Shown here: positions 11,338 to 61,600 of the stretch, one piece after another
Numbering within the stretch: the stretch's first letter is position 1
How the letters are laid out: every line of letters starts with the position of its first letter
Source of the DNA: Tribonema minus
Taxonomy: Eukaryota > Sar > Xanthophyceae > Tribonematales > Tribonemataceae
NCBI GenBank assembly: GCA_017506865.1
Contig: JAFCMP010000401.1
Coordinates: 682,001-746,000, forward strand
Direction of reading: 5' to 3'
DNA length: 64,000 nucleotides
Made by a program: the position numbers and the translations under genes
The notes under the pieces: generated by a model
Databases searched by the model: none
Told to the model about the DNA's origin: nothing
Seen by the model: the letters and a program-made list of their open reading frames with translations, nothing else

Positions 11338-11377
11338 TTAGGGCTAGGATTAGGGTTAGGGTTAGGGTTAGGGCTTA
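11338..11377 (+). repeat. Interstitial telomeric repeat (TTAGGG)n
   Basis: Six TTAGGG-type units, the first two degenerate (CTAGGA variants), ending about 90 bases before the dUTPase ATG. Confidence 0.9.
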
Positions 11378-13133: not shown

Positions 13134-16100
13134 CTATACGCCGCTACTTGGTACGTTGTAGCGCGTGTCCTCAGGTGAGAACAGCAATCCGCAGCTGTTG
13201 TCGAGGTAGAGGTGATACTTGAACTGGTTATACCAGAGAGGGGTCACCTGCGGGCGGCAGCGGCAGTGTGCGCAGAACACAGTTTCAACTTCAAGTTGCC
13301 ACTTCACTATGGCATGGAACATCGCCTCTGACGCCTTGCCCCTGGCCCGCTGGAGCGATTGCTGCTTGCGCTGTCTGACTGGGCCTGCCGGAGGGTCACT
13401 GCCAAAGCGCAAAGCGTGTGTATAAGTGTACACACTCACTATCGGCTGTGCCGAGAGCCTGTCTAAGTGTCTGACACGCATGTTCTGTTCACAGCATGCT
13501 GTTGGTCTTAATGTGCAGGCACTCACGCGCTGGGCACCTGTAATGGGCACATTCGCCTCGCGTCCTCCTGCGTAGCGACGCGACGCTCTTAGGGTTTGAG
13601 TTAGGGTTAGGATTAACGCTGAGTGCCCTGTCAGCGCACGTATTCTTGAAGCACAACAATGCAGCACCAATGACCAGGCCAAGGTCCACACGAAATGCGC
13701 ACACTTGGTGGTTTGCACTAGTGCTACGTTGTATACGAATGCACCAAGTGGGGCCCCGCAAGCAAAAGAGCTGAATTGTGGAGCGTCCCTACTACATACT
13801 TGAAGTTACAGTTGAAGTATGAGGGTTGTGATCACCTTGTCGCCGTGCATGACGGAGCCGTCCCACACGTAGTCAAGCACGTCCTGGACTGTGAAAGCAC
13901 GCGGCGAACAACAGCAAGGGGCGGCAGCGCAGGCATCAGCGCGAACGTCCGGGCTGCAGTGGCAGCAGCGCTCAGTACTGATGTTGGCGTGCGCCCGACG
14001 CTCTTCGACGCTTGAATTTGGCACGGTCTGTTGGTGTGGAGCAGTAACCTAGCGAGCAGCAGCCTGTCTTGTTGCACCACTGCTCTCATGCGGGACTAGT
14101 TGTTGTGAGGGCGGCGAGAGAGGCTGGCAGGCGCACAGCCGGACGCGCGCAGCTCCTGAAACTGGCACATGCGGCGAGCGCTGTCATGCCAGTGCTGAGC
14201 ATCTGCTGACACGTGCACCCCACCCCACCCCCCCTCCCCCCCACACACCACAAACGCACACCATGCTGAGAGGGCATGACCACCGAGAAGACACTGTGCA
14301 GGCACGATGGCGACGCTCCTAGACCGAACGAGTTGCGCGGTGCAGACACCAGCAGGCACGCCTAGGCTGGTACATCAGCAAGCGTCCATCAAAGTAGTGT
14401 TCGCCAGGCGCATGCGAATTCTTGTAGCGAGCTGGACATCTACCATTTGGGCTTCCTTGCGCCCCCCAAGTAAAGAGCCTGCCTGTATTCTGCGCGAATG
14501 CCTTACCCAGCCAGCCTGTCCATGCCTCTGAGCAAACACCGGTTACAATGACAAACGCAAGCCGCGAGACACCACACATGTGCGATCACCGCGCGCGCGT
14601 TGCGCGACGGAATTGCAGGACTCACTGCATATGTGCATGTACGCCGCGCGCAGCCCCCAGTGCCCGTTGCAGTGGCAGCGCTGCAGCATGTCGTTGATCG
14701 CCGCCGTGTCGGTGATGGTCGACCACAGCTGGCACGTCGCGCCGGGCGGCACGGCGGACGACACGGGGCTCCCCTGCCGAGAGGGAGGAGGAGCGTCGCA
14801 CTGGAAGTGTGATGCGCTTCGCACTTGAAGTGTGAGGCGATGAGTGTGCGAGTTTCAGCAGTTGTGCGCTGCTGTGTCGGTGACGCTCCGCGACACGGCG
14901 AGCACGTCCGCGGAGTGGCAAGGGAGGTTGGGTGGGGCGACGCTGTCGAGGGCAGCGGTGCTGTTGAACACGTCAAGCGCTTGGTATGTGAGGGGAACTT
15001 GTGCCGCGTCGAGGGAGCTGGCAAGTCACCTTAAGCGGCTGCTGGGAGTACAGGGAGCTCCCCGAATTATGTTGCATTTCTAATGGTATCATTTGGTCAC
15101 ATGACCAACATAAAAATCACATCAGAGGGACTTCTGTCAAAGAAAATACAAGAGAGACACCCAGCGACGCCACAACTGACTGACTGTGCGGCAGTAGCTA
15201 TGAGGGTGGCATCGGATCAGCACGTTATTGTAGTGAGTGAGTCACGACGAGAGTTTGAAGTTGAGCTCTGCGATGCTCCGCCATGCGTCGAGCACGCGGG
15301 GCTGACTGCCTGTAGTAGCGCGGCCAGCAACATGGCGGAGCGCTGCACACGTTGCCGTCAAACGCGGCTGCATGCACTAAGCTTCAGCCACTGAGCGTCA
15401 GTCACTGAGCGTCAGTCACCAAGCTTCGGCACATCACTTTCCAGCAAGGCCCGGAGGCAGCACTTGCAGCGCCACGCGAGGCTGCCGCTCACCCTCTAAC
15501 GTGACCGCCGCCTTTCTGACCACTCGACGCTAGGTTGCGTGCCCGGGTAACATTTACTAGGGCTAGGGTAAGTTGTAGTCATCATGCGCAGCCTCGTACC
15601 GTGATCACATAGCACTAGCACTTGACTAGCGATACGGGGGTCACACAGTGTGGCAGGGTAGCCTTCACCAGGCTAGGGCTAGAGTAGGTAGATATCATGC
15701 GCAGCCTACATAGGCTCGCACCATGATGACGTAGCACTAGCACTAGACTAGCAATTAGGGTATCCCACGGTGTGGCAGGGTAGCATTCAGCAGGGCTAGG
15801 GCTAGGGTAGATGTCATGCGCAGCCTGCACAGGCTCGCACCGTGATGACGTAGTCGCCGTTCTTGGCGTTTGCGGCGGCCGTTGCGTCGGCGTTGTACAC
15901 GAACGCCAGGTCCTGGAACAGGTCGCCGCCGGCGCTGTTGGACGACGCGCGCCCGAGCTCCGGGGGCTGGTCGTAGGGGCCGTAGTTGAAGAATCGGCCG
16001 CGGCGGGGGTCGCCTGCGGGGCGGGTGACGTGCCATGGTGTCAAACTTCAAGAGGTGATGTGTGGGGGGCTGCGAAGATGCACAGACGCACAGTAGCGGG

Positions 16101-17528
16101 CTCTGCCCGCGCTTTCAAGTGTTGAGGCTACATGACTACGGTGAATCGGAAGCAGCAATATCGCTGTGCTTTGGGGTGAGGCCGCGCGCGTGTCATGCGA
16201 GAATACGCACACGCTTAAGTGCAGGCTTTGCCATGTCATCGAGCTGCTGAGGCCTTGGGAACATCATGATGTGGTGACCTGTACAGCCTGCGCCGGCGAC
16301 AGAGTGAAAACAAACCACACTTACCAACAGGGAAGTCTGGGCCACAACCAGATTCTGGATACCGTCTGCGGGGCAGGGTGAGAGAGGCATATCAGCGCTG
16401 TCAGCGAGGGCCGCTTTCTTTTCTGTGACAGAGACACAGTGCTGCTGTGAAGGGGGCAGCGCGTCACGCGGCTGACGGGGGGAAGGGGGCACATGCCTAA
16501 TATCTGCATACCCATGTAACCGCTGTGAGCAAGAACTGTCAACATAAGCCAGGAATTGCAGAGCATGGACTGTGCAAGACGACGGTGAATCATAGTCTGT
16601 CGCGTAGCAGACGCGCATCTGTTGAGCCCTCAGCTCTTGAATTCAATGGAGGTGCGAGCCGGCACACTACGTGTCAATTGCTGCGCGTTCCAGGCCAGTG
16701 CCGTACTTCACCCAAGTGTTTTGCAGTGTCTGACGCGCATTATGTTGCAGGTGCTGTGCACAGTTGCAAAGAGCAAACTGCAGCGCATGATCTGCGGCTG
16801 CGCATGCTGCCGCGAGCAAGAAAAGAAGAGGAACCATGCATGTAGTACCTGCCAACCAGTCAAACATGGCGGCACAGGGGCCGCGCTCGCAGTGCGCAGG
16901 GTGCGTAACTCGTGAGCAGCGCTATGTTATCGAGCTTGCTCACTGCGTATCGCATATGACCACCTCGGACAGCAGCGAGCAGCGGACGAGTTCACTCACA
17001 GGCAGCCGCGCGCTGTTGAACTCACTTGCACTCGCAGTGAACTCACGTGTACTTGAAGTGGTCGAACCAGTACCGGCGCCCGTGGCGTCCGCCGAGCATG
17101 CCGACGCCGACCATGTCGTCGAGAGTTGCCTCCACGCAGTCCAAAAACCTGCCTCTGTAGCCCCACTGCGTCTCGCAAGGGCAGCGCGCCCAGATCCTGT
17201 TCTCGACTTGGTAATCATCCTCGGTAGCCCAGATGTCACAGCTCCTCTCTCGGTCTGAGTCGGGCGCGTTTGAGAGGACGGCTTTCGGTGGCATGGGCCA
17301 GCCGTCGGTCTCGCCTGGGAGGCGGCCCTCAGCTGCTAGCGTCGTTATCCCGTTTTTGGTGGCGCCGGCCATGAAGCCTTCATACGGGAGCAGTGCCCTG
17401 GTGCCAGCAGCAGTCGCTGCACCCGCAGCAGCGGCTAGCATTGCTGGTGTCTCTGGAACGCTGCCGCGAGCGACACCACAAACGACTCCAGCTACCACCG
17501 GCAGCAGGTACATTGGCGATGCCACCAT
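13134..17528 (-). CDS. Secreted Cys-rich protein with an internally duplicated module
   Basis: Six exons on the minus strand, 17528-17047, 16365-16325 (41-nt microexon), 16013-15841, 14773-14626, 13888-13836 and 13247-13134, agree in phase throughout and give 336 residues. The N-terminus (MVASPMYLLPVVAGVVCGVA) looks like a signal peptide, so the protein is probably secreted or lumenal. Residues 97-169 and 246-319 are copies of one ~73-residue module. Shared positions include C-x-[IL]-W-[AS]-T-x2-D, R-C-x-C-x3-W-G-x-R, a further Cys, L-D, M-x-G, W-[FY]-[DN]-x-F-K-Y and S-x-C-G or S-C-G. Five Cys per module suggest disulfides. I recognise no family; no catalytic motif is evident. The repeat spans exons 1-2 and 4-6, which independently supports the splice model. 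Alternative: extra small in-phase exons in the 1.07-kb intron 3. Confidence 0.8.
13589..13616 (+). repeat. Degenerate telomeric repeat in intron 5
   Basis: TTAGGGTTTGAG followed by TTAGGGTTAGGATTAA, inside intron 5 of the Cys-rich protein gene. Confidence 0.75.
15540..15855. repeat. Tandem array copying the end of exon 3 (exon echoes)
   Basis: A unit of 113-119 bases is present about 2.6 times, anchored by CATGCGCAGCCT at 15583, 15695 and 15815. Each unit also carries a CTAGGGCTAGGG-like run and GCACTAGCACT...GACTAGC. The unit nearest the gene contains the exon 3 donor and the last ~12 coding bases (CGTGATGACGTAG on the plus strand); the two further copies carry degraded versions of that splice junction within intron 3. 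Confidence 0.85.
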
Positions 17529-18282
17529 GGCGCAGCACCAGCACGCTGCAGCGAGAGCTGCTGTTGCCTCTGTAGAACTGTGTTCGCCGCGTGATATGTT
17601 GGGGCCTGGCGCATGGCGTACTCCTTCGCAAACCACCTGCCACACTCGCCATTTCATAAACGCACTAGTGGGTGATAAGAATGACTCGCTTGCCAGCGTT
17701 GCTTCTCACAGTTCCGCACAACAGCTGTGGCGTGTCAGGCACCCTCGCTCGGCGCTCTTTGCGGTTGAAGCTCGCAGTTGAAGGTGAAGAAGCTTAATCC
17801 CTTGTTGAAGGTGAAGTGCAAAATCATCCACCTTCCCTTACCACCTTTGGAAGCATTATGGCAGAGGAGTGCTGCGTAAGCTGTCGCCACCAAAACTCTC
17901 TGGCGTAGTGTCAGCGACAGCGACAGCACATAATCTTGATGGTCTCTCAATATGGCTTCCTCTCGATTCGGCAGTGTGGAAGCAACCTGAAGATCGGGCC
18001 AGCAGCAGGACGATTGCAGCTTCGCTTTTCAGGCAATTGGAACCCATAACTGGAATATTTCCAGGGACAACGACCCACGTGCCAGATCATGTCGACACAT
18101 TGATGTCTGCAGTGCAACTGCCACCGAGCATGTGGCCATAGACATGCCAGTGCTGTGAAATATTTTGACTGACTGAGACAGCGGCACGCCCATGGGCGCT
18201 AGCAGCATCATGGCACGTCCACGTACAACAGCCTCAGGCCAGACATCACCATTTACACGTCCTTCATACAGATGTGGCGCTA
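17529..18282. other. Region between the Cys-rich and coiled-coil genes
   Basis: It contains the 5' flank of the Cys-rich gene and the 3' flank of the coiled-coil gene, both minus strand. A 90-codon plus-strand ORF (17869-18141) has no domain and no splice support. TACAGATGTGGCGCT is directly repeated at about 18268 and 18287, straddling the stop codon of the coiled-coil gene. Confidence 0.4.
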
Positions 18283-18685
18283 TCATACAGATGTGGCGCT
18301 CTTGTCAAATGACCTCAGGAGCTGCTCCAGAGACTGATGGCCGTCCAGCACACGCCACGGCGGAGGCGGCGCCGCCGCGCCCGCGCCCCGAACGCCCGCG
18401 TAGCGCGTCGCAGCCGCCAGCGGTGACGCTTCATAGCACTCTCTGTCATTGTTACTCAGGGCCCATCCACTGCCGACTCCAGCGCTGGCAGCTTCCCACC
18501 ACCCTCGCGGCGGCGGAGGCGCCATGACTGTTGTGGCCGGTGACGAACCAGTCCCCGCGAATGCGTTATTCGCGGCCGCCGCGTTGCAACACAGGCGGCA
18601 CGCGCGCACGCGGCATGCGCTGCCGCCGCAAGGGCCATACAGCGGCGGCGGCGTGCACACATGTAGCGGGCAGGGGTGCTGCAGC

Positions 18686-18716
<31 letters not shown>

Positions 18717-22665: not shown

Positions 22666-25600
22666 ATGGCTGTGGACGATGCTGTGGAGCGCCTGTTCAA
22701 GGGCACGGAGTGTCTGGCACCGATGGTCAGAGCGGTGAGAAGCAAGCAATGCGTAGCTGCCGCGTGCGATCTCTATCTCTGTCCTTTTTAATAAGTTTTA
22801 ATCAATCAAATACCAATAGATTGCTCTGTTGCACATTGGGCCCTCTTCTTTCAGTGCAGTGCAAACTTCAATATCGGCCAAGAAAGGCTGCGTCACGGGG
22901 CAACAGATCTGCTCATGGCGTAAGCCTGGACACAAAACCCACTGCGTCGCATGGTGCGACCGTCATTCCCCCCTGTGCGTGAGTCTACGCATACGATTGG
23001 TGCTATATATTCTGGGTACAACGTGAATTGAATGTTGAGGTCATAGCACAGTCGCTGCTGCTGGTGCTGGTGCTGCTGCTGCCGCCGCTGCTGCCGCTGC
23101 TGTGCCTGCTGCTGTCACAACCGCTACATGCTGCAGGACAGCCTGGCCTGAAACCTGCTGATGCTGCCCCACGGTGATCAAATTGTCCAACAAAAGCAGC
23201 TTCCTCAGCTTCTGTAGGCACTCATCGGTGCCCTGCTTGCACTGCACTAGCTGCACTCAACAGCACAGTATTCGTAGCCCCCATTCAGCACCCATCAATG
23301 CCTATCTCCATTGTGCATTTGCATGTGCTGAATGCGCCGGCTGCTGCCGCCGCCGCCGCCGCCGCCGCGCGCTGCTGCAGGGCAGCCTGCCGCTGCGCCT
23401 GCTCGCGCTGCAGTACGGCGCCGACACCGTCTGGGGCGAGGAGCTCGTAGACAGGCGCGTGAGTGCTGCCGTGAGGCACGTCAATCACCACCTCGGCACG
23501 ATCGACTACGTCAACAACGGCAAGTCCGTGGCCTTCCGGACGTGCGACGCGGAGCGCGGGCGGGTGGTGTTCCAGCTGGGGACGAGCGACGCGGCGCGCG
23601 CGCGCGCCGCCGCGGAGGCCGTGGCGCGCGACGTCGCCGCCGTCGACGTCAACATGGGCTGCCCGAAGCGCTTCTCCATACAGGTAGGTAGGTACGCAAC
23701 TGGTGCGGCGCACGCGAGAGATACGCCGTGCAGGCAGTTGTCGGCTGCGCAGGTGCTGCGAGTCGATGATGACTTAGGATGCATGCGTGTCCGCCCGTTG
23801 CCGTCGTGAGGTGGTAATGTGTCGTGGTGAAGCGGACACCCACTGCTAATCCACTCAAGTTGCCGTGGACGCAAAGTGTCAGCACCGTCTTGCTGGCTTG
23901 CAGCAGGGTCCAGGTTCAAGACCCAGTTCTAACCTCGTGCATTGCATGCTCTTCAGTCGTTGAAGTCGCTGCCAGCAGACCTGCCACCACGCGCCGCCAA
24001 CTGTACCCTCGCCACCTATATGAAGCCACTTAGTCCATGCCGTGCGTGCGCCTTGACCGCTGGCTCCGCTGGCAAACGCGCGTGCCAACAGCGCAGGCCG
24101 CTTCGGCCACAGGGCCGCGCGATAGCGCCGTGCGCCCCAGCGCCGCCGCTGCTACTCGCAACACGCGCACCATCCTCGCACGCCGCGCCGGCTGTCGCTG
24201 CACGCCACATATGTCGCTGCTCGCCCCAACGCTGCTGCTGCTCGTGCAGTGCGCACGCTGCTGTTGAGCGGCTGCGCGAGGGCGTCCCGCGCGGCTGACT
24301 TCGGCCACGCGCTCAAAATCTACACTAACAGCACATCGCGACGCAGTGCCTTCAGCGGCGCCGCATCCGCTCACCGCCGCCGCGCGCCGCCGCCGCCGCT
24401 GCCGCCGCCGCAGGGCGGCATGGGCGCGGCGCTGCTCACCAACCCGGACGTCGCGTGCGACATCATCGCGACGCTGCGGCGCGCGCTGCCGGTGCCCGTC
24501 ACCGCCAAGATCCGCCTGCTCGACACGGCGGCTGCGACGGTGGAGCTCGCGCGGCGGCTGGAGGCGGCGGGCGCGGCGGCGCTCACGGTGCACGCGCGCC
24601 TGCGCTCGACGGACCCGAAGGAGCCCGCGCTGTGGGACATGCTGCGCCCTGTTGTTGATGTGAGTGAGGGCTGATAGTGTTAGCTAATACTATTGTGCGC
24701 TTCGACCCAGGCACGGCAATGCTTATTTTTTACGTCTGCTGCGCTCGGCGGTCATAAATGACCGAGCAGCCCGCGCTGCGGGACATGCTGCGGCCCATCG
24801 CCATCGTGAGTGAGGGCTGGGGTACGGGTTCCCATAGCCCCTAACTTTTATCACTTCACGCGCCGCAGCAGCGCTCTCACTGCGCGCCGCGGGCGCCCAG
24901 GAGCTTGCGCTGTGGTTCATGCTGCGTCCTATCGTTGACGTGAGTGAGGGCTGGTTGTGTCGCGTAAACCCTGGTGTCTTCCTCAGCCCGGGCCCGGCCA
25001 AGCTCCTTGTGCACCTCTGCAATGATTGACGGACTTCGTGTTGTCGGCCTGGGGGCCCCTCAGCATCCCCATCATTGCCAACGGCGCCATACACCGCCGC
25101 TCTCATTGGGTGGGCATGTACCAGAATCTGTTGCTCGGACCACACCCATACCCATCCCCTTCACCTCCCCCCCCTGCTCGGACCATACCCCATACCTCCC
25201 CCCCTTCCCTCCCCCCCCCGCCCTCCTTGCGCAGTCCGTCGGCATCCCCGTCATCGCCAACGGCGACATCTACAGCCGCGCCGACATGGCGACGGTGCGC
25301 GCGCAGACGGGCTGCGCGTCCGTCATGCTCGCGCGCCCCGCGCTCCTCAACTGCTCCGTCTTCGACAAGGCGGCGGCGGCGCCGCGCCCGCAGGCGGAGG
25401 TGCTGCGCGAGTACGTCAAGCTGTGCTCCAGGTGCGCCCGCGCGCAGTTCGAAGAAGCACGCGAAGCGCTGTCGTGTACTGGTGTACGTGCTCGCTGCCT
25501 TGCTGTTCATGTCGAGAGGCGACCAGTAGTGAGTGGTTCGTGAGTGGTTCCTGGGGCAGTGGCAGCACGCTGCGAGAGTAAGTCAAGCTGTACTCCAGGT

Positions 25601-28378
25601 GCGAATGCATGTGGAGGCGCGGACCGAGCGCAAATTGAAGCATGCTGTTGGCCCAGTGTTGGGATTTGAGCTGGTCCAGATGCATGCTTAGTTCATACCC
25701 TAGGAGTAGGGCGCAGTCCGGTTGTAGGCGCCTGCTACAGCAGCGAATCGAAGCGCGCGAAGCGCTGTCGTGTAGTTCCATGCAGCCACTTCACAAGCGC
25801 TCTTGCCATCCATAAGTAGCGCTCGCTGCCTCGATGTCTGTTCTGAGAGGCGACCTGGAAGTAGTGCATGGTTTCTGGCGCAGGGGCAGCACAGCGGCAG
25901 GTACCTGGCCAGCTGCCGCCATCATTGGCGAGCTGTGCTCCTGTGCTCGACGCGCGTGAGCGCAGGGACATGGTGGCCACGCGGTGCCGGACCGTGCGCA
26001 CACCACAGCACGCAAAGTGGCACCATGTACAATTATGATGGCTGACACTTTCAAGTACTTCGAAGTACATGTTTCCTGCTCAGAAGCTGTCGTCCGGAAG
26101 GCTCAGAAGGGTACCTGTGTCCTTCCTCAATTAGGGTGAGGTTTACGGTGGGGTCAAGGGTTAAGTTTAGGGTTCCATCGCCCTGTCAGCTCAAGAAAAC
26201 AATCTGCTGCGCGCACTTACGGCGTACTCATGCAGAGGCAGGCGACGAGCGGTGCGGCGGCATCTGCAGCTGTTGCATGGTATTGGCCATGATGCTGTGG
26301 TGATATGACAACGTGTCAGCAACTGATACGTCTGCTTTTTATTATATAAACATGTATGATGCTAGTATTCATTTGGCATGTGCTATTGTGGAAGGGCTCT
26401 CAGGCACCCCGTCAGTGCCCTCTGTTTCCAAACGGCTCTTGTGCACTTTAATGGTGTAAGGCACCAGCGGCTAACCACCGCTTGTCACCTAGAATTCTAC
26501 GATCTTCTGATTCGTTTCCATGCACATTGTCGCCTCGCGCAGATACGGCGAAACCTACCAGAACGCCAAGTACACGGTGATGGAGATGATGACCACGCGG
26601 CGACACCCCACACACCTCATGCACCGGCTGCGCATCACACTACCGGATGACGCTCCGTCGATGCTGCAGGTGAAGTTGAACTTGTGACGGAAACAGGTAA
26701 CAGCAATGGCTGCTGTGTAGGGTTAGTGTTAGGGCTAGGGTTGCGGAGCCTCTGGAATGGGTCGTAGGGGAGCTGCACAGCGCGTTGAGCGTTTGGATGA
26801 GGGTGATCCATGTTGAAGTTGAACTTAGAAGCGGCGCACTTGAAGATTTGCTTTCCGAACGACGCGCGTGCTTTGTACGCCCGCACGTGACGTCTTGTGA
26901 TGCTGTTGTCTGTATTGGAAGTAAGTTGTGAAGTATGACGTATTGTACTTCTGCGCAAGTACAGTACGCCTGAGCGCCTGAACTTCCGGACACGCTGTTA
27001 ATGTACATTGCCACCTTGACATGTCCGCCGGTCGCAGCTGCCATGCAACGCGGCGCTCCCGCGTATAGGTGCGCCCAAGCCTGGCTGTTGCTGCTCGAGC
27101 CACGTCAAAAGCGGTACACTGCCCTCAAAGCCGCTGCTGCGCACCACATCCCGAAAACCCCTTGGCGACACACGCTGCCAGGCCATGCTGTATGGTCGCC
27201 ATTGATGTCAGTGTACCCGAGTACTACATCGCCCTCAGAGCTGCTGCTGCCGCGGACCATGGTGAAAACACACGTGACACATGCTGCCAGACCACCCTGC
27301 ACTGTGGCTATGACGTCAAAGTGCCCAGACGGCGCTGCTCTGCTGAAATGCGCACCGCGTTATTTTGTTTTCCGTCACACTTTCTGACTGCAGGTGAGCC
27401 GTGTCAAGGCGCTGCGCGAGCTCGCCCTGCTGTGGCGCGTGGACAAGGAGCACAATGTGTGCGCGGCGGAGGCAGCGGCGCGCGGCGCGGCGGCGGCGGC
27501 GGGCCCTAGCGTCGCCCTTACGGAGCTGGCGCACCGGTACGCATGTACTTCAAGTGTGCGCTTCAAGTCACGCGCTTCACTTGATACATGCCGGTATGTG
27601 AACATGGGGTGCGCGGAGCGAGCGCCGCGGCGGCACGGGACGCAGCGCTCCCGCACCGAGGCAGGCTGGCTGTCATGTGCTTGAGCGCCAGCGTAGGCAT
27701 TCCTTGACGCTTCCACCCTGGGGCGGGAGAGGCCACTTGGCGATGCCGTTGAGAAGTGATCGTTCAATGCGCATCGAGACGCTTTCAGTTTATCACGTTG
27801 TGCATGCAGATTCTGGCGGTGGCAGGCTGGGTATCCATCATCTGGGCTTCAACACGCTATAAGCGAGGATATATAATTAGTACTCCTGGTATGTGGCCAT
27901 GTCAGAGAACGAAACGCGCTACACTTCAAGTACACGATATGTGCGTGCGCGTGTCGCAAGGTCTACGTCGGCGTGCGATTGCTGCACCATGATCTCAACA
28001 CGCATGCACAAGAGACAGGAGTGAGCCTGCAACATGGTGGCCGCATACGCATACGCGTGCCGCGCGGGACGCTTTGCGAGCCTGATGCCACTTCAATTTC
28101 AACTTCAAGTTCAATGTTCTCGACTGCGTCACCTCTCGCCCTCTGCCACGTGCAGCTACGACGACGACTTCTTCCTGCGACCGGAGCCGTCGGTGGCAGA
28201 TGCGGAAAGAGTGCGCAATCAGACAGATACACTGAGCGCTGCTGCTGCTCCACAAGAGGAGCCTTCAAACGGCACCGCTGTCGGTGCGCAAGGTGGCGTG
28301 TTGCAGGAGGAGCGCGCGTGCGCGTCGCCGGCCGCCAAGCGGCAACGAGCAGCGCAAGACGCGATTACAATGCCGTAG
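22666..28378 (+). CDS. DUS2: tRNA-dihydrouridine synthase, Dus2/Smm1 type
   Basis: This FMN enzyme reduces uridine to dihydrouridine in the tRNA D-loop (position 20 in Dus2 of yeast and humans). Seven exons, 22666-22734, 23381-23683, 24414-24659, 25235-25431, 26543-26669, 27394-27536 and 28156-28378, join in phase to 435 residues. In order: LAPMVRAGSLPLRLLALQYG (FMN-barrel start), EELVD, GTIDYV, FRTCDAERGRVVFQLGTSD, VDVNMGCPK with the catalytic Cys117, GGMGAALL, VTAKIRLLD, LTVHAR, IPVIANGDIY, then a C-terminal helical domain (YGETYQNAKYTVMEMM). The tail after residue ~360 is disordered and ends KRQR-rich, possibly nuclear. No dsRNA-binding domain, which human DUS2 has, is visible. Introns 3 and 4 contain degraded copies of exon 3 and exon 4 edges. 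Confidence 0.93.
24739..24954 (+). repeat. Two echoes of the exon 3 end with donor (Dus2 gene)
   Basis: The real exon 3 end (24601-24672: GAGCCCGCGCTGTGGGACAT...GATGTGAGTGAGGGCTG) is repeated at 24739-24820 and 24879-24954. Both copies keep GACATGCTGCG or TTCATGCTGCG, an acidic codon run and GTGAGTGAGGGCTGG. Neither has an acceptor, so they are decoy donors inside intron 3. Confidence 0.85.
25038..25109 (+). repeat. Echo of the exon 4 start (Dus2 gene)
   Basis: CAGCATCCCCATCATTGCCA followed by ACGGCGCCAT copies the IPVIANGDI-coding start of exon 4 (25235 onward) about 190 bases upstream of it, with the preceding CAG changed to a weak acceptor context (CCTCAG). Confidence 0.8.
25455..25902 (+). 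repeat. Tandem duplication around the exon 4 donor (Dus2 gene)
   Basis: GCGAAGCGCTGTCGTGTA and the following ~110 bases occur at 25455-25578 and again, diverged, at about 25750-25902. A separate short copy of the donor junction (AAGCTGTACTCCAGGTGCG) lies at 25584-25603. Confidence 0.75.
26131..26742 (+). repeat. Telomere-like tracts in Dus2 introns 4 and 5
   Basis: Degenerate TTAGGG runs lie at 26131-26176 (intron 4) and 26718-26742 (intron 5, beginning ~50 bases after the donor). Exon 5 lies between them. Confidence 0.65.
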
Positions 28379-47500: not shown

Positions 47501-50500
47501 GCAGTATCACGCACAGTATACATGCTTCAATGCGATGAGCACAAGGATTTGCGGGTAGCACATTGCTCGTAGCTTTGACATCCGTGTTGAGCTTTGTTCC
47601 CCCACATGTCATGGATCGCTGCTCTGACACTCTGTTGGTGCATCTGACGCGTGGCTGATCAGGCTGCGGAGCTGGAGGCGATGCGAGCTGAGCTGGACGC
47701 AGGTCAGTAGCATCGCTCAACCCCTGCCCCATACAAAATACACAGTGATGTCATGTTAGGGTTTGAAGTCCAACCAACTGCAAGTCGACGTTCGTGTGTT
47801 TTGTGATCAGAATAACTAGGTTTAGGCCCACAGCTGCGCACAGTCAGGGTCACTCAGCATTAGAGCATGCCTCATTGATCGGGGTGCCCCATGCGCGACA
47901 GAACCACGCAGCGCACGCATTGCGCAGTGTTGTGCTTTGCAGGTGTGAGCCTGAATGTGCATGGGATGTGGTAGGGTTACAATTAGACCTAGAGCTGCTG
48001 TTGGCCTAGCCCTAAGCACCGGCGCAGCGTACACGTTCACGCATCTGCTGCGCAGGGTGGCGGCGAAGTCTACCCCAATGTGTCCTGCAGATGTTGCGCC
48101 ATGATGCTTTCACCACCCCACGCCTCAAGTCATATGTTTAGGAACGGCTAAACTGGCGCCAGGGCATTTGCCTCCCCCCCCCCCCACCTCCCCCCACATA
48201 CTTCGAAGTCAATTAAACAAGCGTATCCCTCATCCGCAGTGCCAACCATCAACGCCGCGTGCGCAGTCAGAGTACTCGTGACCCTTGTGCACAAGCAGTC
48301 GTTTTTTGCCGTTGGTGCTGAGAAGTGACACCGCCCCTGCCTGTCGCCCCCACGCAGCGCGAGAGGCCACCGCGGCGGCGCAGCGGCATACCTACCCACC
48401 CCTCATTCCAGCAGAGCGGCAAAGGTGTACTTTATTATATTCCACTTGTGGCTGTGGAAATGCCATGTTGTAGGTGTGTCGCCTTGTTCTCACTCTTGGA
48501 TGTAGCATGCAAAGCTTGCACGCCACACCCCGCCCCCCACATCACCCCCAACAAAGCACCCGCAAGCGACTGTCCCCCACATACTAGCAGGGATACCAAA
48601 CAAAGCTACAAGACTCTCCCCCCACAGACAGACCCACCCAGCTCCACGCAGACTCCATCTCAAATTTTTCATGCAGGCCAAGGTCACCATAATCGGCCCT
48701 GAACTGGTGTACATCAGCAGCGCCGTGTGCGCAGTCAGAGCTCAACCCCCCCCCCGTGCACAAGCCATCTCTGTTTTGTGGTATGTGCTGAGACGTGATG
48801 CCAACTGGTGCCTGTCTCCCCCGCGCAGCGCGACAGGCCGCCGCGGCGGCGCAGCGGCAGCGCGCGGGCATGGCGCAGGAGTTGCAGGTGCGCGCGATGG
48901 CCCTGTGGACGCGCAGCACATGCGCTGAGCACTGATTTACTGAGCACTGATTTGCTGAGTGCTGATTTGCTGAGCGGTGATGACCACACGGGGGCTGCAG
49001 CAGCGGCAAACATTGTCTGACTGCAGGCACTGCCTATCTCACACACGCTCAAGCAGGGTCAGAAATAGGGTTAAGGTTTACAGACACACACACACACACA
49101 CACACACCAGGCTCCAGCGAGCGCCCTGGCATCAGCACTATCAAAAAATGGTGCGCTACCGTCAGTGCGGCCACAAGTCCCGCGAACACCGTTGCAGCCG
49201 GCGCACACACGCTGCCGTGCTGGTGCTGCTGCGGCGCTGGCCGCCGCCGCCGCTGCGGCGCCAGCGCAGCTGCCCTCATTGCGCTGGGAAGGCTCACCGG
49301 CGCCTCAGCGAAATCTGCAGCCAGCAACACACGCCCGTCGCACGCGCTGACGGCGCTGCGCCGCTGCCGCCGCTGCTGCCGCCGCAGGCCCTGCGCGCGG
49401 CGCTCGACGACGCGTGCGCCGACGCCGCCGAGGCACGCGCCAACATGGCGGCGGTCGCGGCGGAGCGGCGCCAGGCGGCGGACGCCGCAGCAACGCTCGC
49501 GGCGCAGCGCCGCGTGCTGTCGCGCGAGCTGCGCGCCGCACGCGTGGACGCCGCCGCCGCCGCCGCGTCGCACGCGCGCCTGGCGGAGGCGTACAGCGCG
49601 CTGGAGGCGAGGGCGGCCGCGGCGGCGGCGGCGCACGGGTCTTACCCTTGCGGCACGCCGCCGCTGTCGCCGCCGCCGCCGCTGGGCGGTGCTGTACTGC
49701 CGTCGCCGCAGGGCGCTGCATCGCCGCCGCCGCCGCTGCTGACAGCGTCGCCGCTGCTGCGCAGTACCAGCCAGTCGCCGCTGCCACGCAGCAGCGGCCA
49801 GGCGGCATCCTCGCCTCACTTTGCGGAGGCGCGTGACGGCGCACCGGCAGGTGGCAACAGCGCTCTGGAGGACGCCGACAGCATCATGGTTTGCGACCTC
49901 CACTCAGGCACGCCATCGCTGCTAGCGCTGCGGTCCACAGCCGCGGCCAGCGCACCGCCGTCGCCGGCGCTGTCCGCAGGCTCGGCTGCGGCGCTTAGTG
50001 ATGATACTGCTGCCGCCACTGCCGCCGCGCCGCTGCAGCAGTGGCTGGCGGCGCGGCAGCGGCAGGCCGCGCTGCCGCCGTCGTGGGGGCCGGACTCGGA
50101 TGACGAGAATGGCATTGTGACGGCAACAGAGGTCCTGGCAGCGCTGCGCGAGACATTGGAGAGCGCTGCTGCAGCAGCGACGGCGGCTGTCGAGGCGTCG
50201 TCGTCCCGCGGCGCAGCGTTGCTGTCGCCTGAAGACCTTGGAGAGGCGTGTGAGGGGGCTCGCAGCGGCGACGGCGGCAGCGGCAGCGGCAGCACAGGCA
50301 GCAGAAGTGGCGACGTTGGCAGTTGCACAACTGCGCAAAGCTCAAGTGCACTGGCAAGCGCTGCAGCGGCAGAGCGCACTCCCCGCAGCACCGCCGCCGA
50401 GGGCGCCGCGGCGCCGCCGCCGCCGCCGGGCACCTCTGCGCGCGACGCCGCGGCCGGCAGCGACAGCAGCAGCAGCGCTCAACAGGCGCCGCCTCCTCTG

Positions 50501-51150: not shown

Positions 51151-53330
51151 CTCAGCATCAGGTGACGGCGCTGCTGCAGCGGCACAAAGCGCTGAGCGCA
51201 GGCGCTGCGCGCGGGTGGTCGGTCACCGCGTTCGCGGCAGCGTCTTGTTGCAAAGGATGAAGCACCGCAGTTGCACTGCAATCGAAAGAGTGGGTAGCCT
51301 GCGAGACGCGCACCGGCCGTTTGCGTTCTGTCGAGCTGACACCTGCAGGGGGGCATTGCCTTGACACAAGCGCGACACTGCATACTTCAACCGCTTGAAG
51401 TATGTGATGGCATGATCGCTGATGATTTTAAATAATGTTGCTGTGGTGTCGTCGGAAGCTGAGGATGCGCGCATCATCATGGCATGTACATAGTTCTGTT
51501 GATGCTGATGTGAATTACAAGTGCAAGTTGAATGGCATGACGGCAAATTCAAGGTGCTGCTGCTGTGACTTTTGCTCCCCCCCCCCCCAAGCTCCATGAC
51601 GCGCATTGTGACTGTACTGTGATTGCATTGATCATCGATGATTCTCAACAACGTGGCTGTGGTGTCGTCAGAAGCTGAGGACGTGCGCACAATGGTATGT
51701 ATGTATACAGTAGAAGTATACACAGGTCCTTCAATGCTGATGAGAATTGTACTGTAAGTGCGAGTGTGATGGTATGACAGTGCTGCAATTGTGACTTTTG
51801 CTTCTTCCCCCTCCCCCCGATCATGACCGAATGAGCACGCATGTGTCAGGCGTTGTGCGCGATGGGATCGTCTGTGTAGCGGAGAGCTGGACAAAGCCAA
51901 CTGTTGTGCACAGGTCTTCCTGTACGTATGGACTTGTATTTATAAAGGCCCAAGGGAGGCCGGGTTGCCTATGCAATCGAAAAGCTTGCGTCAACGCAGC
52001 AGCCTAGTCTGCGCTGTCTTCCTGTACAAATGCCATCAAGCTCCCCATGCCTACTGTATCCTCGTGTATGCGGGCAAAGCGCCCACAGTAGCGACTGAGG
52101 CTCATGCATTATGCATTACTGAGTTGGCAGGCTTTGAATCGCCATGTCCAGCTACCACATTCAACAAATGAGCCCTAGGCTGCCAACCAGCCTACTGAAT
52201 TGCTTGCCAACGACGTTTTCCTGCAGACATGGCTGTTGCAATGGCAAATATTGCCCACACATTGGGCATCGCTGTATTGTGACAACAGAAGTGACCGAGC
52301 GCTCGTTGTTCAGTGCAGCACGCTAAGTTGTCAGATGTTGAAGATGGTCGAATGGGGCCATCGTACCGCATTAGGCATGTGACAGGAAAGCTCATGGCGG
52401 ACGGGTACTTCAAGTGCAACGATGAGAAAGAGGGGGTTGACTCTGAAGTCTAGGGGGGCCACTTGATGACTGAGGCGGTTTGCATAGTACAGTAGACTTT
52501 CACAGTCTTTTCACCCACTGTGTTGACAGCGTAAGCACGTGATGAGGAACAGTTTGATGCTGAGGTCAGACAGGCCATCGCTGGGTTCAACATCTGGGAT
52601 CACCTCAGCAAGCGCAATCATTGCTGCCGCGCTGCCGCCGCGGCCGCTGCTGCTGACGCGTTCGCCGGCGCAGCCGCCGTGGCTGCATTTTGCTCTCCTC
52701 AGTCGCCGCCTCTGCTGCCGTGCTTGCCGGTGGCGCCTCCACGGCTGTAGTGCTCTGTCCAAAGTCGGCGCTGTCCTATGGTGCTTCGGCAATTGGTGTG
52801 CCCTCTTGACCGCCGCTGCCGCTGCCATTGCCGCCGCCGCTGCCGCCGCCGCTGCCGCCGCCGCACGCTGCCGTCGATGCCGACAGTCCCATTTCTACAA
52901 GCTTGATGGCGTCGTCGCCGCTGCCGCCGACCGTGCTGCTGCCTCTGTGTTCGAGCAGCACTCAGAGCCAGACACAACGCCACTGCTGGTGAAATTCCTC
53001 ATGAACTATGCACGGCCGGCATAGGGGCCGCTCACTGCTGCTGGCGCGGCCACCAATGCACGGCCACCGCTGTTCGTGACTGTCGTTGTCGATCGTGATG
53101 CCGCAGCTGAACTCTGACGTCGCCGCCACCTATGCTGTCTCTGCCGCTGCTGGCGTGCCTGACGCACCAGCTTCCTGTTCGCAAGCCGACGCGCCGGCGC
53201 CGCCACCGCCGCTGCCAACTGTACCGCTGCCAGTCGCATCATCGCCGCCAGAGTTGACCAGTTTATGGAGGCTAAGTGCCACATAGAGCACTGAAGCACA
53301 TTGTTGAGCGTTGCCACATGTCTCACCTAA
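51150..53330. other. Unresolved region with protein-like frames on both strands
   Basis: Several stretches read like protein, but I could not join them into one phase-consistent model. Plus-strand candidates include about 52333-52452 (GRMGPSYRIRHVTGKLMADG, after the acceptor-like GTTGTCAG), 52552-52748 (EEQFDAEVRQAIAGFNIWDH), 52860-53025 (SHFYKLDGVVAAAADRAAAS) and 53098-53286. Minus-strand candidates include 51500-51359 (SDDTTATLFKIISDHAITYF, ending CTGCAG/GTGTCAG), 52650-52511 (MIALAEVIPDVEPSDGLSDL) and a Gly/Ser-rich frame at 52961-52776. An intron-rich gene, two overlapping genes, or a decayed gene would all fit. No domain is recognised. Confidence 0.3.
51410..51825. repeat. Tandem duplication, ~228-bp unit
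   Basis: Unit 1 (~51415-51590) and unit 2 (~51640-51815) share GATGATT.T.AA.AA.GT.GCTGTGG-type sequence, then TGTCGTC.GAAGCTGAGGA, a GTACTGTAAGTG or GTGAATTACAAGTG block and GTGACTTTTGCT before a C run. In the first ~45 bases the differences fall nearly all three bases apart, as in coding DNA. Confidence 0.8.
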
Positions 53331-55399: not shown

Positions 55400-55612
55400 T
55401 TCCAGGCTGCTGCTGCCGACCTCCTATGACTACAATGGGTACGCTGTACGTAGTAGCTGCGAATCAATCAGAGCGCTCTTGTCTGAATTTTTCGCCGCTG
55501 AGACGACCCGCTGGCATTCGCTAGAAAAATCTCCTGTGTTTGACAGGGTCTAAACCTTCGTGAAAGCTGGCCGCCCTCTCTCTGATCATACTTCCACGTT
55601 TGCCAGGTCATC
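55400..55612. promoter_or_regulatory. Putative bidirectional promoter
   Basis: 213 bases separate the divergent start codons of the type I membrane protein (-) and the GH5 enzyme (+), both secretory-pathway products. No core motif is obvious. Confidence 0.45.
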
Positions 55613-58600
55613 ATGGTCTGCAAGCTGCTGGCATTGATGGTGGGCTCCGCAGTGGCAGCGCACGTGCCATTGCGTACAGTCGGCGATCCGCCGGCTCCTC
55701 TAGAGGTGAGCTACGATTATCTATCTTGCCAGCGGCCGCCAGCGCCGCGCCGCAGTGGATGGCTCAGTTCATCGTAGCATCGCCCGCGGAGGCGTCCACG
55801 CAGCAGCCTGATCAGGCCCGTGCGGCAGACACTTTGACATTCACTTCGAGGTTCAGTGGATGCGGGGTGCGGTGCCACAGCAGTCTGTCTAAGCACACCG
55901 CGTCAAACAGCTGAGCAACCAGTTGGTAGGCGGTGCCTGATCGCATTAGAGTACTGGTGGCGATCGGCGTGCATGAGTTGCAACTGACCGCTGGTGTGCG
56001 CAGCGACGAGTGCGCGCGATCCGGCACTGTCAAAGATCAAGGATGCTGGACGCTTTCGTGCTGGTTTCACTGCGGGAACAAGCACAGGACATTATTTGCA
56101 TACTACATCAGAGGTGGTACATTCATCCCTGTTTCACGTCCTTCAAGTCCCTCGGTATAATTATGCTTTCTGAGCAACACGCACAAGTGTAAGGGAGACA
56201 TGCACCTTAGGTAGCACAGGCACGGCAGCTAGTAGTACATGACATTGTGGTGGTGGCAATAATGATGGTGGCCATACTCAGTCTGGTGTCGGTGCTGCTC
56301 GTGCTGGCACTGTATTGCAATGACGTACAATTGGCCTTGAAATCATAGCACGCACTGCGTATCAGCTTCAATCTCCGCACTGGCAGCGCTCTGAGACTTT
56401 TAGCCGACTCCCAAGTCCACAGGCCTGCGCCCCCTGCGCCTGGCTCTGGTTGTGCTATGCCGTGGTCTTCCGCTCTTGGTCGCGTCGTGCTCTGCTGCAG
56501 CGAGCCATCATTCCATGGAGTAGCATGTACTTTGTAGCATCCAACCTCTGTGCTCTCCTGCAACTGTTGTCGCCCTTTACCAACTGCTGACGGTTGCACG
56601 CGGCGCTGACGAACTTCATTCAATGCGACGCGCGGCCCGTCCCCCCCGCAGCTGAACGCGAACTCGGCGCAGCAACTTCAACACCAGCCGCAACACCAAC
56701 ATACTGCAGACTTCGACAACCTCCAGAGGATCCTGCCACCCGTCGCGGCCACCGACGACATTGAACGGCGACTGGCAGCCAATGCTGCGGCCCCGGTGGC
56801 GGCGACGCCTGTGTGTTCAGCGGACATTGTGTGGTCATCGGAGCAGGGGCGCATAATGCTCAACGGCGAGCCCTTTCAGCTCAAGGGCATCAACTGGTCG
56901 GGGTTCGAGACAGCAACGAACGTGCTAGATGGAATGTGGCCCGGCGCCAACAACATGAACAAGTGAGTGGGCGTAAGCCGCCGCCCTCCTTCAAGTTGCT
57001 GTGGCAGCATCGCGTCGCCTGCACCTACTGTTGTGCACGGGCCTCGGCGAACGCCGTTGAACCTGGCGCTGTTTGATCCTCGCAGCTGCGCTGTCCCGGG
57101 CGTCGACGACACGCTCCGCACGCGCCTCCTGCCCCTAACCCTAACCCCCCTAAGCCACCTTACACAATTCCAACCGTCTCATTTCGCGTGGAGCACAGTG
57201 TGCTGATGGTGCTTGCCCCGCTCCCCGCGCGCGCGCAGCATACTCGGCGAGATGCGCGTCCTGGGCTTCAACGCGCTGCGCATACCGCTCTCGCTGGACC
57301 TGGCCCTCGCGCCCAAAACGGTCATAGAGGACACAGCGTGCGACTTGTGCGGCGGGCAGCTGTCGTGGAAGGTCCTGGACGACCTGTTTGACCTGGCGGC
57401 CGCGTACGGCATCCTCATCCTGCTGGACATGCACCGGCTCGACAAGGTGAGTCGCAAGTCATGACTCGCGAGTCAGCGCACTCTGCAGAGCGAGGCGCGG
57501 GCGCCTAGTCAGTGCCCCGCAGAGCGAGGCACGGGGTGTGAGTCAGTCGGCGCTCAGTGAACTCACGAGTTGTGAGTCAGTCTGTGAGTCACAGGCTGTG
57601 AGTCAACTTGTGACTCGACGCTCAACAGAAGGAGTCACGAGTCATGAGGCAGCGCTCGGAACGAGGGAGTCAGCGCGCGGGCGGTCGCGATGGCTGTGGC
57701 TGACGCCTACATGCCAATGCCACGGTGTGCGCTGCGAAGAGACCCGCGCCGGCGTTCGCACTCCCCGGAAAGCGATGAGATGCGCCTCGCGCTCTGGTCT
57801 GCTACTGTGGTCTTGAGCTCCGCGCAACGCAGCGCGGACCGCGGCGCGAGCAAGTTCTCCAATGTGCATGTTAGACGTAGTACATGAGTACCACCGGTCA
57901 GCGCTCTTGATCATCATGATGTGGCAGCACGAGGTGATGGCGCGTCCTCAATCAGAGTAAGGGTTAGGGGCATGAAGGTTCAAAGGGGGTCACGGCTAGG
58001 GCTAGGGCTCAACTCACACCCCGCCCGCCGCGCCTGCCGCTGCGCATCGCAGGTCACCCAATCCAACCTCTGGTACGACGAGACCCACACGGAGGCGGAC
58101 TTCATCAAGGGGTGGGTGGCCATCCTGACGAAGTTTGGCGGCAAGGCCAACCTTCTGGGGATAGACGTGAAGAACGAGCCCCAAGGGGAGTGCACGTGGG
58201 GCACCGGAAAGTGAGTATAATAGTGATTCAGGAATGTTCAGTAGGGCTCGGGTTTAGTGCATGCGTACTGCGCTGGCCCGCCACTGCTGCCGCATCGCAT
58301 GACAGCTGAACAATGAGTTAGGAGCTGCTTGGTTGATTGGTCCTTGGGACTCCACATAACCCTAACTTCAACCCTGACCTCTGCATACCGCGCAACAGAG
58401 CCACCTCAGCAGGCTTAAGTGTGGGCCGCTTCGTACCCATTTACCGTAGCCCTGGCCCAAACCCTAGCCAGCAGTGTTGTGGCTAGTCCACTGCCGGTGA
58501 CCAGCGCCATCACGCGCGGCTCTCCAGCCTGTTCGGCGGCCGACTGCGCCGGCGCAGGGAACAGGATCGAGAGTCGCAGCGGTGAATGCCGGTGTGCTGA

Positions 58601-61600
58601 CATGTGATCGTTTCTACCCCTCGTGACGCTCCTCTGGTGACGCTCCTCTCCCACTCTGAAGTGTTTCTCTTCGGCGTCCGACCTGCACCGACGCCGACCG
58701 TGACTACAATGCTGAAGCTGACACATACAGCAAGAGCGCGCGCTCAGCGATGGCGTTAAAGGTAACGCTTTGCGCGCAGCTACCTACAGCGCTCTGAGAT
58801 GCCCCCTTGCTGCCACGCTGCCACAACTGCAGCAAGCTGACGGACTGGAACCTGGCGGCGGAGCGCATCGTCAAGGGCATCGTGGCCAAGGTGCCCACGT
58901 ACAGCAAGCTCATCTTTGTGGAGGGCACCGCCTCGGATTTCCAAGCGCAGCAGCCCCCCGCCAACAGCGTGGCCCCCGCCGACATGGCCTACTACAAGGT
59001 CCGTGACGCGCGCTACGCCGGCCTGACGGACTGCTGTGGTTCCTTTTGTAGGTAACCTTCGCTCATGCTATGGTCATGGGTGCATCTCCTTAGGGTTAGG
59101 GGTTTAGGGTTAGGGTTAGGGTTAAGACTAACCCTAAGGTCGCGCGTACGACCACGCACCTTCAGAAGTACGCCTGCCCTGTTGCTCTACGAGGCCCGCG
59201 GCGCGCGTTGCGCCGGCTCTACTGAGCGTTGTGGATACGCTGCATTCATGTACATGCTGTGCTTATGTACACATCTCATGCGTTACATGTACAAGTACAT
59301 GTCTTTGAAGTACGCCTGACCCATTGGTCTACGAGGCCAGTGACGCGCGCTGCGTAAGCGTCACTGACTGTTGTGGTTGTCGTGAACATACACGCACATG
59401 CCACAATTGAGTTTAAAAGTAGTATCTAGCGTATGTCATTCATTATAGTAGTGCATGCTTCTGAGATATGTTTTCCATCATGTACAGCGCTCACCTCACT
59501 AATAATGTGCACAGACATTATCGCACTACCGCCAACAACCGCCGGGAATCGACATTTGCCGGCAGCAGTTGCCGCTGAACAGTTGCAACATTGAGGCAGC
59601 GTTGCCTAGAATGCAGTTGCCGCAAATCAACCCTGCACTGCAGTAGAGGTACAGCAGGTTTGTTGTAACCCTGGCCCTCTCTTTGTTTCTTTCTGGGTGC
59701 AGTTCGCAGGCCAGAACTTGGATGGCGTCAAGACCAACCCCATAGACTTTGGCGACCCTGCCCTCAACAAGCTGCTGGTCTACAGCCCGCACGTGTACGG
59801 TACGTATCACGTTAGGGCTGTCACGCGCAGCGCAGCGCGCTCTTGGTGATGTGGATCAAGCTGCAGACAAACTAAGCCAAAGGGTTGCTGGCCAAGTTCA
59901 AGTTTTTGAAGTTGCTGCTGCTGGTGGTGTTGGTTGTTCCTATGAAGTCTGTTGCATGCGGCAATGGTGATGGTGGCGGTGGTATCCTGCTAGCGCATCG
60001 CCCTGAGTCGCTGCATATGCTACTGCCGCTGCTGCTTGCGGTGACGATGGTTTGCATGCGTCCCGACTCAAGTCGTTGCTGCTGCAACCGCTGCCGCTGC
60101 TGTTGATGGCTGCAGGACCGGATGTGTTTGCGCAGCCATACTTCGCCGCTGCCAACTTTCCAAAGAACATGGCCGCCATCTGGGACTTGCAGGTCAGTCA
60201 GTGCTCAAAATCTTGTTGCCTTATGACACAGTGCTGTAACGCGTAGCGTTTGTGGACGCGCAGGTCAGCGCTCAACTGCGTCCTTGCAGCAAGGCACGAC
60301 GATGCTATGCATGGTGTTTCACCATCCTGCATGTAGGATTACAATCTCTATGCTTAGACGTACTGCCTACTAGCAGGTTCAGGGCGACAGCTCTACATGC
60401 GCATTGTGTCGTGGCCTTCTCCTCTGATGCGAGCAGTAATCATTCACACGCTCCGTTAGGCCGTTCCGACTCTGCGCGCGTTCACCAATTCTGTGCGAGG
60501 ACGCGCCGCACTCAACTTCAACTTCAAATTCAACTTGTCTGTGCCTGCCGCGCCTCAGATGGGCTTCCTGAAGCAGGCGACTGGCTCCGCCGTTGTCACA
60601 GGTAAGAGGACGCGGCAGCGGGCCAGGGTGAGAGTAGGGTTGTTCTTAGGACTAGGCTTAGCGCTAGGGCCTGGATGAGAGTCAGATGGGCCGCTCATGC
60701 AGGTATGCATGTGTTGCGCCCTAACCCTTTGCAACGGCGTCGTGCGATACCATCCCTTGTGCTGGTGCCCAGATATGAGCCTGTTCTGGCATGAGGAGGC
60801 TGTGAGATGCATGTCGAAGGACCTGAGGGCTGGTATTCAGTCACGGTCAGGGTTGGGGTTGTTGGGAATTAGAATCGGGGGACCCAACACATGACGTGTT
60901 CCACTGAGCACTGAGGCAGTTGGAATTCAGTTAGGGTCAGGGTTCGGGTTGTTGGGGATTAGAGGTAGGGTGAGGACCTAAGATGTGGCGTGTTGGCCAT
61001 CACGCTGGATGCAGTGCTCTTGACCACTGATTCCGGCACATCCACTTCGACTGCTCAAGTTGTATCGCCGCTTGACACCAAACCCCCGTGCATGCATGCC
61101 GCACTGCTGAGCTCTCACCGAAGTCCAACAATCACCTCACCCTCACCCTGAACGCTTTGCGTCGACGTCGCGCAGGCGAGTGGGGCGGGAACTTTCTCGG
61201 CGACGACCTGATGTGGGCGACGGCGTGGACTAGCTACTTGGTGGACAAGTGCTTCAACGACAACTTCTTCTGGTGAGTCACTGAACTTCAACACTGCCTG
61301 CTGCACAGCGCAAGTGGGGTCAGCCGCTCGACGGCCTTTAGCAATGAACTCGTGGGGCGTACAGAGTGCAACGAGGAATCAAAGGCGACGTTCATGTCGA
61401 CCACCTACATGGGTAAGAAGCGCTTGACAGCTTCTGATTATTAGCAATCACCCCTGCTTTAGCGTTCTTCACGGTGCCACTACAAGGTGGCAGCGGTACT
61501 GGTGCCAGCGCCCAGAAACATAGTCCTGCCGCTTGTAGGAACTTCCTGCGAATTGCACACTGGTTCGTCATCAGTCGCTCTTCACTCTGCTTTATCCTGC

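Follow-up and report, generated by a model that had tools for sequence, protein, structure and literature searches.

When breaks with protruding ends are repaired, tandem duplications can result, according to the accounts in PMC5730883 and PMC8355091. In rice, insertions of 10 to 1000 bp are described as being tandem or partly tandem, or as copies of sequence lying within 200 bp (rice study cited in PMC7407515). For introners, the criterion given in PMC9860276 is that a genome has at least four introns that are similar to one another. Here, we describe copies of exon edges, termed echoes, that lie in the adjoining introns of several genes in a 64,000-nucleotide stretch of the Tribonema minus genome (contig JAFCMP010000401.1), called the window.

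Splice junctions and copies in their own introns

An earlier note on this DNA had called for exon edges to be matched against their own introns. In the window, this matching used 65 hand-curated splice junctions, a simple gene finder having been dropped as too permissive; one of the 65 (minus strand, about 7607) was placed one base off. An exon-edge copy in the own intron was found at P<=0.01 for 14/65 junctions, where 0.65 is expected, and the reverse-complement control gave 1/65. The loci listed in the note do hold direct copies close to where it had placed them, and their ten junctions all fall within the 14. The four new junctions are 48887, 49388, 14626, and 19721, of which 48887 is probably low complexity, as it also scores in the reverse control.

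A stricter scan, requiring scores 4 SD above those of other introns and with queries limited to 100 exon bases, retained 8/65 junctions and 13 copies. These junctions are Dus2 24659, Rab8 36582 and 37479, PH 45770 and 45499, coiled-coil 48829, Cys-rich 15841, and 14773, the last being absent from the note. Dropped were Dus2 25431, Dus2 25235, and GH5 58998, whose echoes (25569-25603, 25057-25100, and 59165-59234) are under the threshold. The 13 copies are 64 to 92% identical to their sources, and misassembly is therefore an unlikely origin of the duplication. The exon-edge echoes are real and are decaying tandem copies within their own introns. The proposal that genes unrelated to one another carry tandem duplications across splice junctions, the copies being placed in the intron, is supported. 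Scanning the window for Rfam families and tRNAs gave zero matches.

Echoes in individual genes

The Dus2 gene, whose hand-spliced model matches the Pfam Dus family at 2.5e-52, carries echoes at three junctions.

24414-24659, plus strand: Dus2 exon with the copied 3' edge and donor (GAT/GTGAGT)
24708-24819, plus strand: echo 1 of the donor edge at 24659; 92 exon and 14 intron bases; 77/114 identical
24859-24960, plus strand: echo 2 of the donor edge at 24659; 78/103 identical; intron side P=0.007
25057-25100, plus strand: acceptor-side edge echo of Dus2 exon 25235-25431; 44 bp, 82%; junction P=0.005
25569-25603, plus strand: echo of the 25431 donor edge; 35 bp, 91%; junction P=0.005

The intron side of echo 1 scores 220, barely ahead of the 219 reached by the best control (P=0.007). 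For the echoes at 25057-25100 and 25569-25603, the intron side is not significant (P=0.68 and P=0.52, respectively); later parts of the 25431 unit are seen again at 25750-25774 and 25821-25892.

Two donors of the Rab8 gene have echoes.

36631-36722, plus strand: echo of the Rab8 donor edge at 36582; 66/97 identical; junction P=0.005; intron side P=0.17
37578-37654, plus strand: echo of the Rab8 donor edge at 37479; 68/77 identical, gap-free; intron side P=0.007

The donor GT of the second echo is now GC, and its site score is 1.4 vs 8.0 for the real donor. The earlier note had extended this echo to 37581-37865; past the copy at 37578-37654, this interval is weak and holds just one more copy, near 37835, with a low score. 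A search of viral contigs with the Rab8 exon found no match, and a search of genome contigs returned 10 loci, the best 62% identical and none resembling a close relative.

The PH gene and a coiled-coil gene also hold echoes.

45288-45388, plus strand: acceptor-side edge echo of PH exon 45499-45770; 81/102 identical; intron side P=0.30
45819-46364, plus strand: five-echo array derived from the PH donor edge at 45770; intron side of its first echo P=0.007
48247-48388, plus strand: acceptor-side edge echo of coiled-coil exon 48829-48887; 145 columns, 77%; intron side P=0.007

In the first of these, the acceptor AG reads AC, while the coiled-coil echo is mostly intron sequence. The PH array probably grew stepwise, since its later copies have changes in common. 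By arithmetic on the scan coordinates, the array accounts for about 600 bases of the 784-base PH intron 45771-46554, which bears out the idea that such copies lengthen introns.

The remaining echoes belong to a Cys-rich gene on the minus strand and to a GH5 gene, whose hand-spliced model matches Pfam at 7.2e-28.

15557-15853, minus strand: tandem array of two to three units (period 116-122) that spans the donor of Cys-rich exon 15841-16013
59165-59234, plus strand: echo 1 of the GH5 donor region at 58998; intron side P=0.008; junction P=0.005
59307-59376, plus strand: echo 2 of the GH5 donor region at 58998; 77% to the first GH5 echo; P=0.008

The Cys-rich units form a tandem repeat of 2.2 copies (intron side P=0.007).

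Orientation and extent of the copied units

Repeat pairs within 500 bases of each other and scoring at least 38 bits are direct in 25 cases and inverted in 3, pairs of one array being counted separately. In a gap-tolerant alignment with the exon kept in the query, homology runs on into the intron beyond every control for 8/12 echoes, indicating that the copied unit spans the junction. For the other 4/12 (Dus2 25569, Rab8 36631, Dus2 25057, and PH 45288), the intron side does no better than controls. At 8-15% change per copy, simulation predicts that the bulk of the intron part remains alignable; to account for these four echoes, subsequent insertions or deletions, or a different origin, must be invoked.

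Tandem duplications also occur away from junctions.

27115-27326, plus strand: tandem duplication inside a Dus2 intron; period about 110; 105 columns, 70%
60823-60994, plus strand: intron-internal tandem duplication without a junction; period 88; 84 columns, 77%
7412-7589, strand not assigned: tandem duplication, apparently intronic, in a gene on the minus strand whose model is weak; period 86; 93 columns, 84%

Among windows past the first 40 intron bases, 24/262 have direct own-intron copies at P<=0.01, compared with 8/262 in reverse. The earlier note had envisaged a process that tandemly duplicates splice junctions; tandem copies across junctions are there, but specificity for junctions is not supported, as intron-internal copies arise too, though one simulation leaves room for some preference.

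Codon positions and splice-site strength

Exon and echo differ at 28/187, 28/187, and 46/188 sites for codon positions 1, 2, and 3, respectively (raw counts, in which nested PH copies are not independent), a divergence of 15% at each of the first two positions and of 24.5% at the third. This is the pattern expected if selection holds the exon while the echo drifts, and the echoes themselves are free of codon constraint. That the real splice site is the stronger copy, as had been suggested, is borne out for donors: the real donor outscores 14/15 echo donors, on a scoring matrix that was built from real donors and is thus biased toward them. The one echo donor that outscores its real counterpart is a weak, doubtful Rab8 copy.

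These data bear on whether echoes might be functional alternative exons or decoy splice sites under selection, which we regard as very improbable. Some echo donors are intact, such as that of Dus2 echo 2 (8.9 vs 9.0 for the real donor), and the AG is kept in the coiled-coil echo (48338-48388). Nevertheless, change is substantial at codon positions 1 and 2 and equal between them, several echoes have lost their donor, the Rab8 echo would by our own count shift the reading frame, and the PH copies inspected are mostly without a close AG. Alternative exons are disfavored on the codon-position counts.

Origin of the echoes

We propose, with a probability of roughly 0.7, that a general process of short tandem duplication, probably through the repair of breaks, lengthens introns while hidden by splicing. 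Such a process would yield short tandem duplications, with periods of about 86-470 bases here, and its cause would most likely be the repair of staggered breaks by fill-in and end joining. If a duplicated unit extends across a splice site, the site closest to the exon (the first donor or the last acceptor) would presumably stay in use. Cross-junction duplications would then be tolerated because this site still gives a normal, unchanged mRNA, making them putatively neutral at birth. The exon copy would remain under selection, while the extra copy would turn into intron, drift, and be able to duplicate again, such that introns may lengthen by repeated edge duplication. Junction copies may be conspicuous partly because one of the two copies is held constant, so that even old events can still be recognized. 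The tandem-duplication reading is backed by the excess of direct over inverted pairs, the 14/65 junctions, the exon-echo differences by codon position, the intron-side homology, the intron-internal tandem copies in the same genes, and the placement of the echoes within existing introns. Against it, we count the four echoes with an intron side no better than controls, the rest-of-unit test and the exon overlap above simulated decay (both described below), and the lack of any near-identical long duplication. The best long matches are 91% over 35 bases and 96% over 25, and 95-100% identity is reached only by short units of 13-21 bases, so these copies give no evidence of ongoing activity.

A different possibility is templated insertion, in which pieces of exon edge are copied nearby as filler during break repair rather than as contiguous tandem units. 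This would suit the 4/12 echoes recognizable on the exon side only, the PH copies, which are gappier on the intron side than on the exon side, and a first rest-of-unit test, which was significant in just 1/10 junction cases and pointed to fragment copying. We nevertheless consider it quite unlikely, as the gap-tolerant alignment recovers the intron side of most echoes and the Cys-rich units and the PH array repeat intron sequence too. Junction-targeted duplication, by which splice sites, and perhaps donors above all, would be break-prone (e.g., through cotranscriptional R-loops or nicks), is somewhat less improbable but still unlikely. Copies are found at 10/33 donors versus 4/32 acceptors and for 8/33 windows of the first 40 intron bases, against the lower rate deeper in introns, although the donor-acceptor difference could stem from what splicing tolerates. 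Events overlapping an exon by at least 10 bases number 8/11, with 5.0 expected under random placement (P=0.06), and alternative counts of 8/13 and 9/14 give P=0.17 and 0.09; against a simulation of uniform-age decay, the same counts give P=0.014, 0.05, and 0.03. The junction itself, however, is covered in 6/11, 6/13, and 6/14 events (P=0.10, 0.22, and 0.24 under random placement), and exon-containing copies stay detectable longer, the simulated junction-spanning share reaching 0.64-0.95 among old copies. Overlap with exon edges is thus at most modestly above chance. The corresponding bolder picture, of donor-led junction hot spots of break-driven duplication, introns growing mainly by copying their own edges, and each echo marking a dated growth step, is likewise a long shot.

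Implications

Under the general tandem-duplication process, a selected exon edge beside a drifting copy is a built-in clock that dates single intron-lengthening events, and exon-echo pairs give a near-neutral rate within one gene. Genome-wide counts of echoes would show what share of intron length comes from tandem duplication versus mobile elements and would tell whether splice sites attract breaks.

Comparison with known systems

Introners place repeats within introns, as here, and give similar introns in several genes (as outlined in PMC9860276), whereas each of the local copies found significant in this DNA matches its own gene. No introner family was seen in the window at 50 bits or more among 25/230 repeat pairs (low-complexity and short pairs removed); pairs more than 2 kb apart at this score are a repeat near the window ends. 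In tandem exon duplication, exon sequence is repeated beside itself, as in the window. Unlike that process, which copies a whole exon with its coding constraint, the echoes comprise only the exon edge (queries of at most 100 exon bases) and adjoining intron, and codon positions 1 and 2 are unconstrained. In the limited literature collection searched, we found no paper describing degraded junction copies as a general intron feature.

Intron gain by tandem duplication, as presented for Drosophila (PMC2891723), for potato (PMC4974935), and in a review (PMC3443670), resembles the present case in that an exon or intron-exon segment is duplicated and splicing decides the mRNA content. In those cases, an intron is gained, whereas in the window an intron already present is only extended. 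The earlier suggestion of new-intron creation found no evidence in the window: rather than bounding a new intron with a duplicated splice motif, the echoes lie inside existing introns, and models that omit them give the expected Dus and GH5 domains. Another close match is the short tandem duplication of break repair (in the accounts of PMC5730883, PMC8355091, and PMC7407515), with direct nearby copies of tens to hundreds of bases within introns and spanning exon edges. Unlike in those systems, the copies here are too old for breakpoints to be read; what they share with them is direct orientation at short distance (25 vs 3) and homology on both sides in 8/12 echoes, the other 4 not being significant.

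Copies of exon edges in neighboring introns

All results are drawn from one 64-kb window, in which 65 splice junctions (33 donors and 32 acceptors) were curated, giving 30 introns with both ends placed and a total of 19,815 bases. Splice sites were predicted from frame and consensus, and 1 of the 65 was placed one base off. The predicted Rab8, Dus2, and GH5 gene models are supported by homology: Rab8 matches the Ras family (7.4e-40), its closest solved relatives being Rab-8A, and the hand-joined Dus2 and GH5 proteins match Pfam's Dus (2.5e-52) and GH5 cellulase (7.2e-28) families. The PH gene has a weak PH assignment (0.0011, under Pfam's cut-off), and the Cys-rich gene on the minus strand, searched as a partial protein, had no match in Pfam.

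An earlier note on this sequence had described degraded copies of exon edges in adjoining introns of unrelated genes, and these are real. The exon edge matches its own intron better than other introns (P ≤ 0.01) at 14 of 65 junctions, compared with 1 of 65 in a reverse-complement control, and 10 of the 14 had been listed by that note. Donor 48887, one of the remaining four, likewise scores against the reverse complement and probably reflects low complexity. At ≥38 bits and separations of up to 500 bases, self-comparison of the window yielded 25 direct and 3 inverted repeat pairs, with arrays counted by pair. A stricter scan retained 8/65 junctions, with 13 copies, and dropped Dus2 donor 25431, Dus2 acceptor 25235, and GH5 donor 58998.

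The copies span the splice junction. In the stricter scan, whose queries were limited to 100 exon and 25 intron bases, nine of ten donor echoes (as we term the copies) include 58 to 99 exon and 4 to 25 intron bases, and that of the Cys-rich gene includes 13 and 25. When the query's intron part was swapped for other intron pieces from the window, with only the first 8 or last 6 original bases left in place, the true intron side outscored all 125 to 150 controls in 8/12 echoes (one narrowly) and failed to do so in 4/12. In a previous test, homology over the remainder of the duplicated unit had been significant in 1/10 junction cases. A short tandem repeat at 17017-17060 (period 21, 2.1 copies, 82%) covers the Cys-rich gene donor at 17047.

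Decay and growth of the echoes

Across six donor families, the Cys-rich gene's excluded, exon and echo differ at 28/187, 28/187, and 46/188 of codon positions 1, 2, and 3 (raw counts, in which the nested PH copies are not independent). Because positions 1 and 2 have changed equally, this pattern argues that echoes decay as introns rather than as coding sequence; the position 3 excess is consistent with silent substitutions in the exon. The real donor outscores 14 of 15 echo donors under a matrix made from real donors and hence biased toward them. Copying is clearest in the PH intron, where five successive copies follow the exon; since the later copies have changes in common, the array was probably built up stepwise.

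Are junctions preferred?

Duplication is not confined to junctions. Direct copies further along the same intron were found for 8/33 windows in the first 40 intron bases (2/33 in reverse) and for 24/262 beyond them (8/262 in reverse; P ≤ 0.01), and the tandem duplications at 60823, 7412, and 27115 include no junction. Of the genome-wide, junction-duplicating process proposed in the earlier note, the junction-spanning copies are supported in this window and a specificity for junctions is not.

At three score thresholds, 8/11, 8/13, and 9/14 inferred duplications overlap an exon by at least 10 bases, versus 5.0, 5.8, and 6.1 expected under random placement (P = 0.06, 0.17, and 0.09); the junction itself is covered in 6/11, 6/13, and 6/14, versus 3.7, 4.3, and 4.4 (P = 0.10, 0.22, and 0.24). 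In a decay simulation, duplications differed in how long they stayed recognizable: once each copy had changed by 22%, detection still succeeded for 66% of those spanning a junction and for 14% of those lying wholly within an intron. This accounts for an excess of junction copies among old events. With uniform ages, the simulation predicts an exon-overlap share of 36%, lower than observed (P = 0.014, 0.05, and 0.03, respectively), although an older age mix would raise it. Given placement P values of 0.06 to 0.24 and age-dependent simulation values of 0.014 to 0.05, junctions may be moderately preferred.

Other repeats in the window

Telomere-type TTAGGG hexamers (both strands) number 42 in noncoding sequence, versus 9.1 expected, and the 17% masked as coding contains none; the Rab8 echo has one at its start. 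TTGAAG/CTTCAA occurs throughout noncoding sequence at about four times expectation (88 versus 22). The first copy of a three-copy dispersed repeat, possibly a mobile element, is split by ~770 bases. The period 215 duplication has a short similar open frame in both copies.

Repeats and motifs
10863-10880, 11338-11373, 37575, 38148-38159, 57133-57153, 59090-59121: TTAGGG hexamers
1-574 with 1348-1987; 4083-5293; 63016-64000 (minus strand): dispersed repeat, three copies
3045-3211 and 3378-3550: inverted repeat, 82% over 173 columns
51403-51488 and 51618-51701: duplication (period 215), homologous across the unit and not within a curated gene

Mechanism and comparison with intron gain

End joining at staggered breaks is reported to yield short tandem duplications as one of its outcomes (PMC5730883; PMC8355091), and rice insertions of 10 to 1000 bases are reported to take similar forms (PMC7407515). 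PMC2891723 cites 1901 duplications from Drosophila lines; most are tandem, their median is 367 bases, and 624 contain some exonic sequence. A donor-spanning duplication would leave the first donor in place and an acceptor-spanning one the last acceptor, and in either case normal mRNA could still form. Lower tolerance of duplication at acceptors would fit both the rarity of significant copies there (4/32, versus 10/33 at donors) and the PH acceptor copy, which has AC where the exon has AG. Separately, an acceptor echo at 48338-48424 still has its AG, followed by an open frame up to a candidate donor, and on its sequence may be an incipient cassette exon.

Lengthening, one of two intron outcomes that the earlier note had suggested, is supported; this window gave no evidence for the other, new-intron creation. 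Tandem duplication has been described as a source of intron gain in Drosophila (PMC2891723) and potato (PMC4974935), and the subject has been reviewed (PMC3443670). In those cases an intron was gained, whereas in this window existing introns were lengthened.
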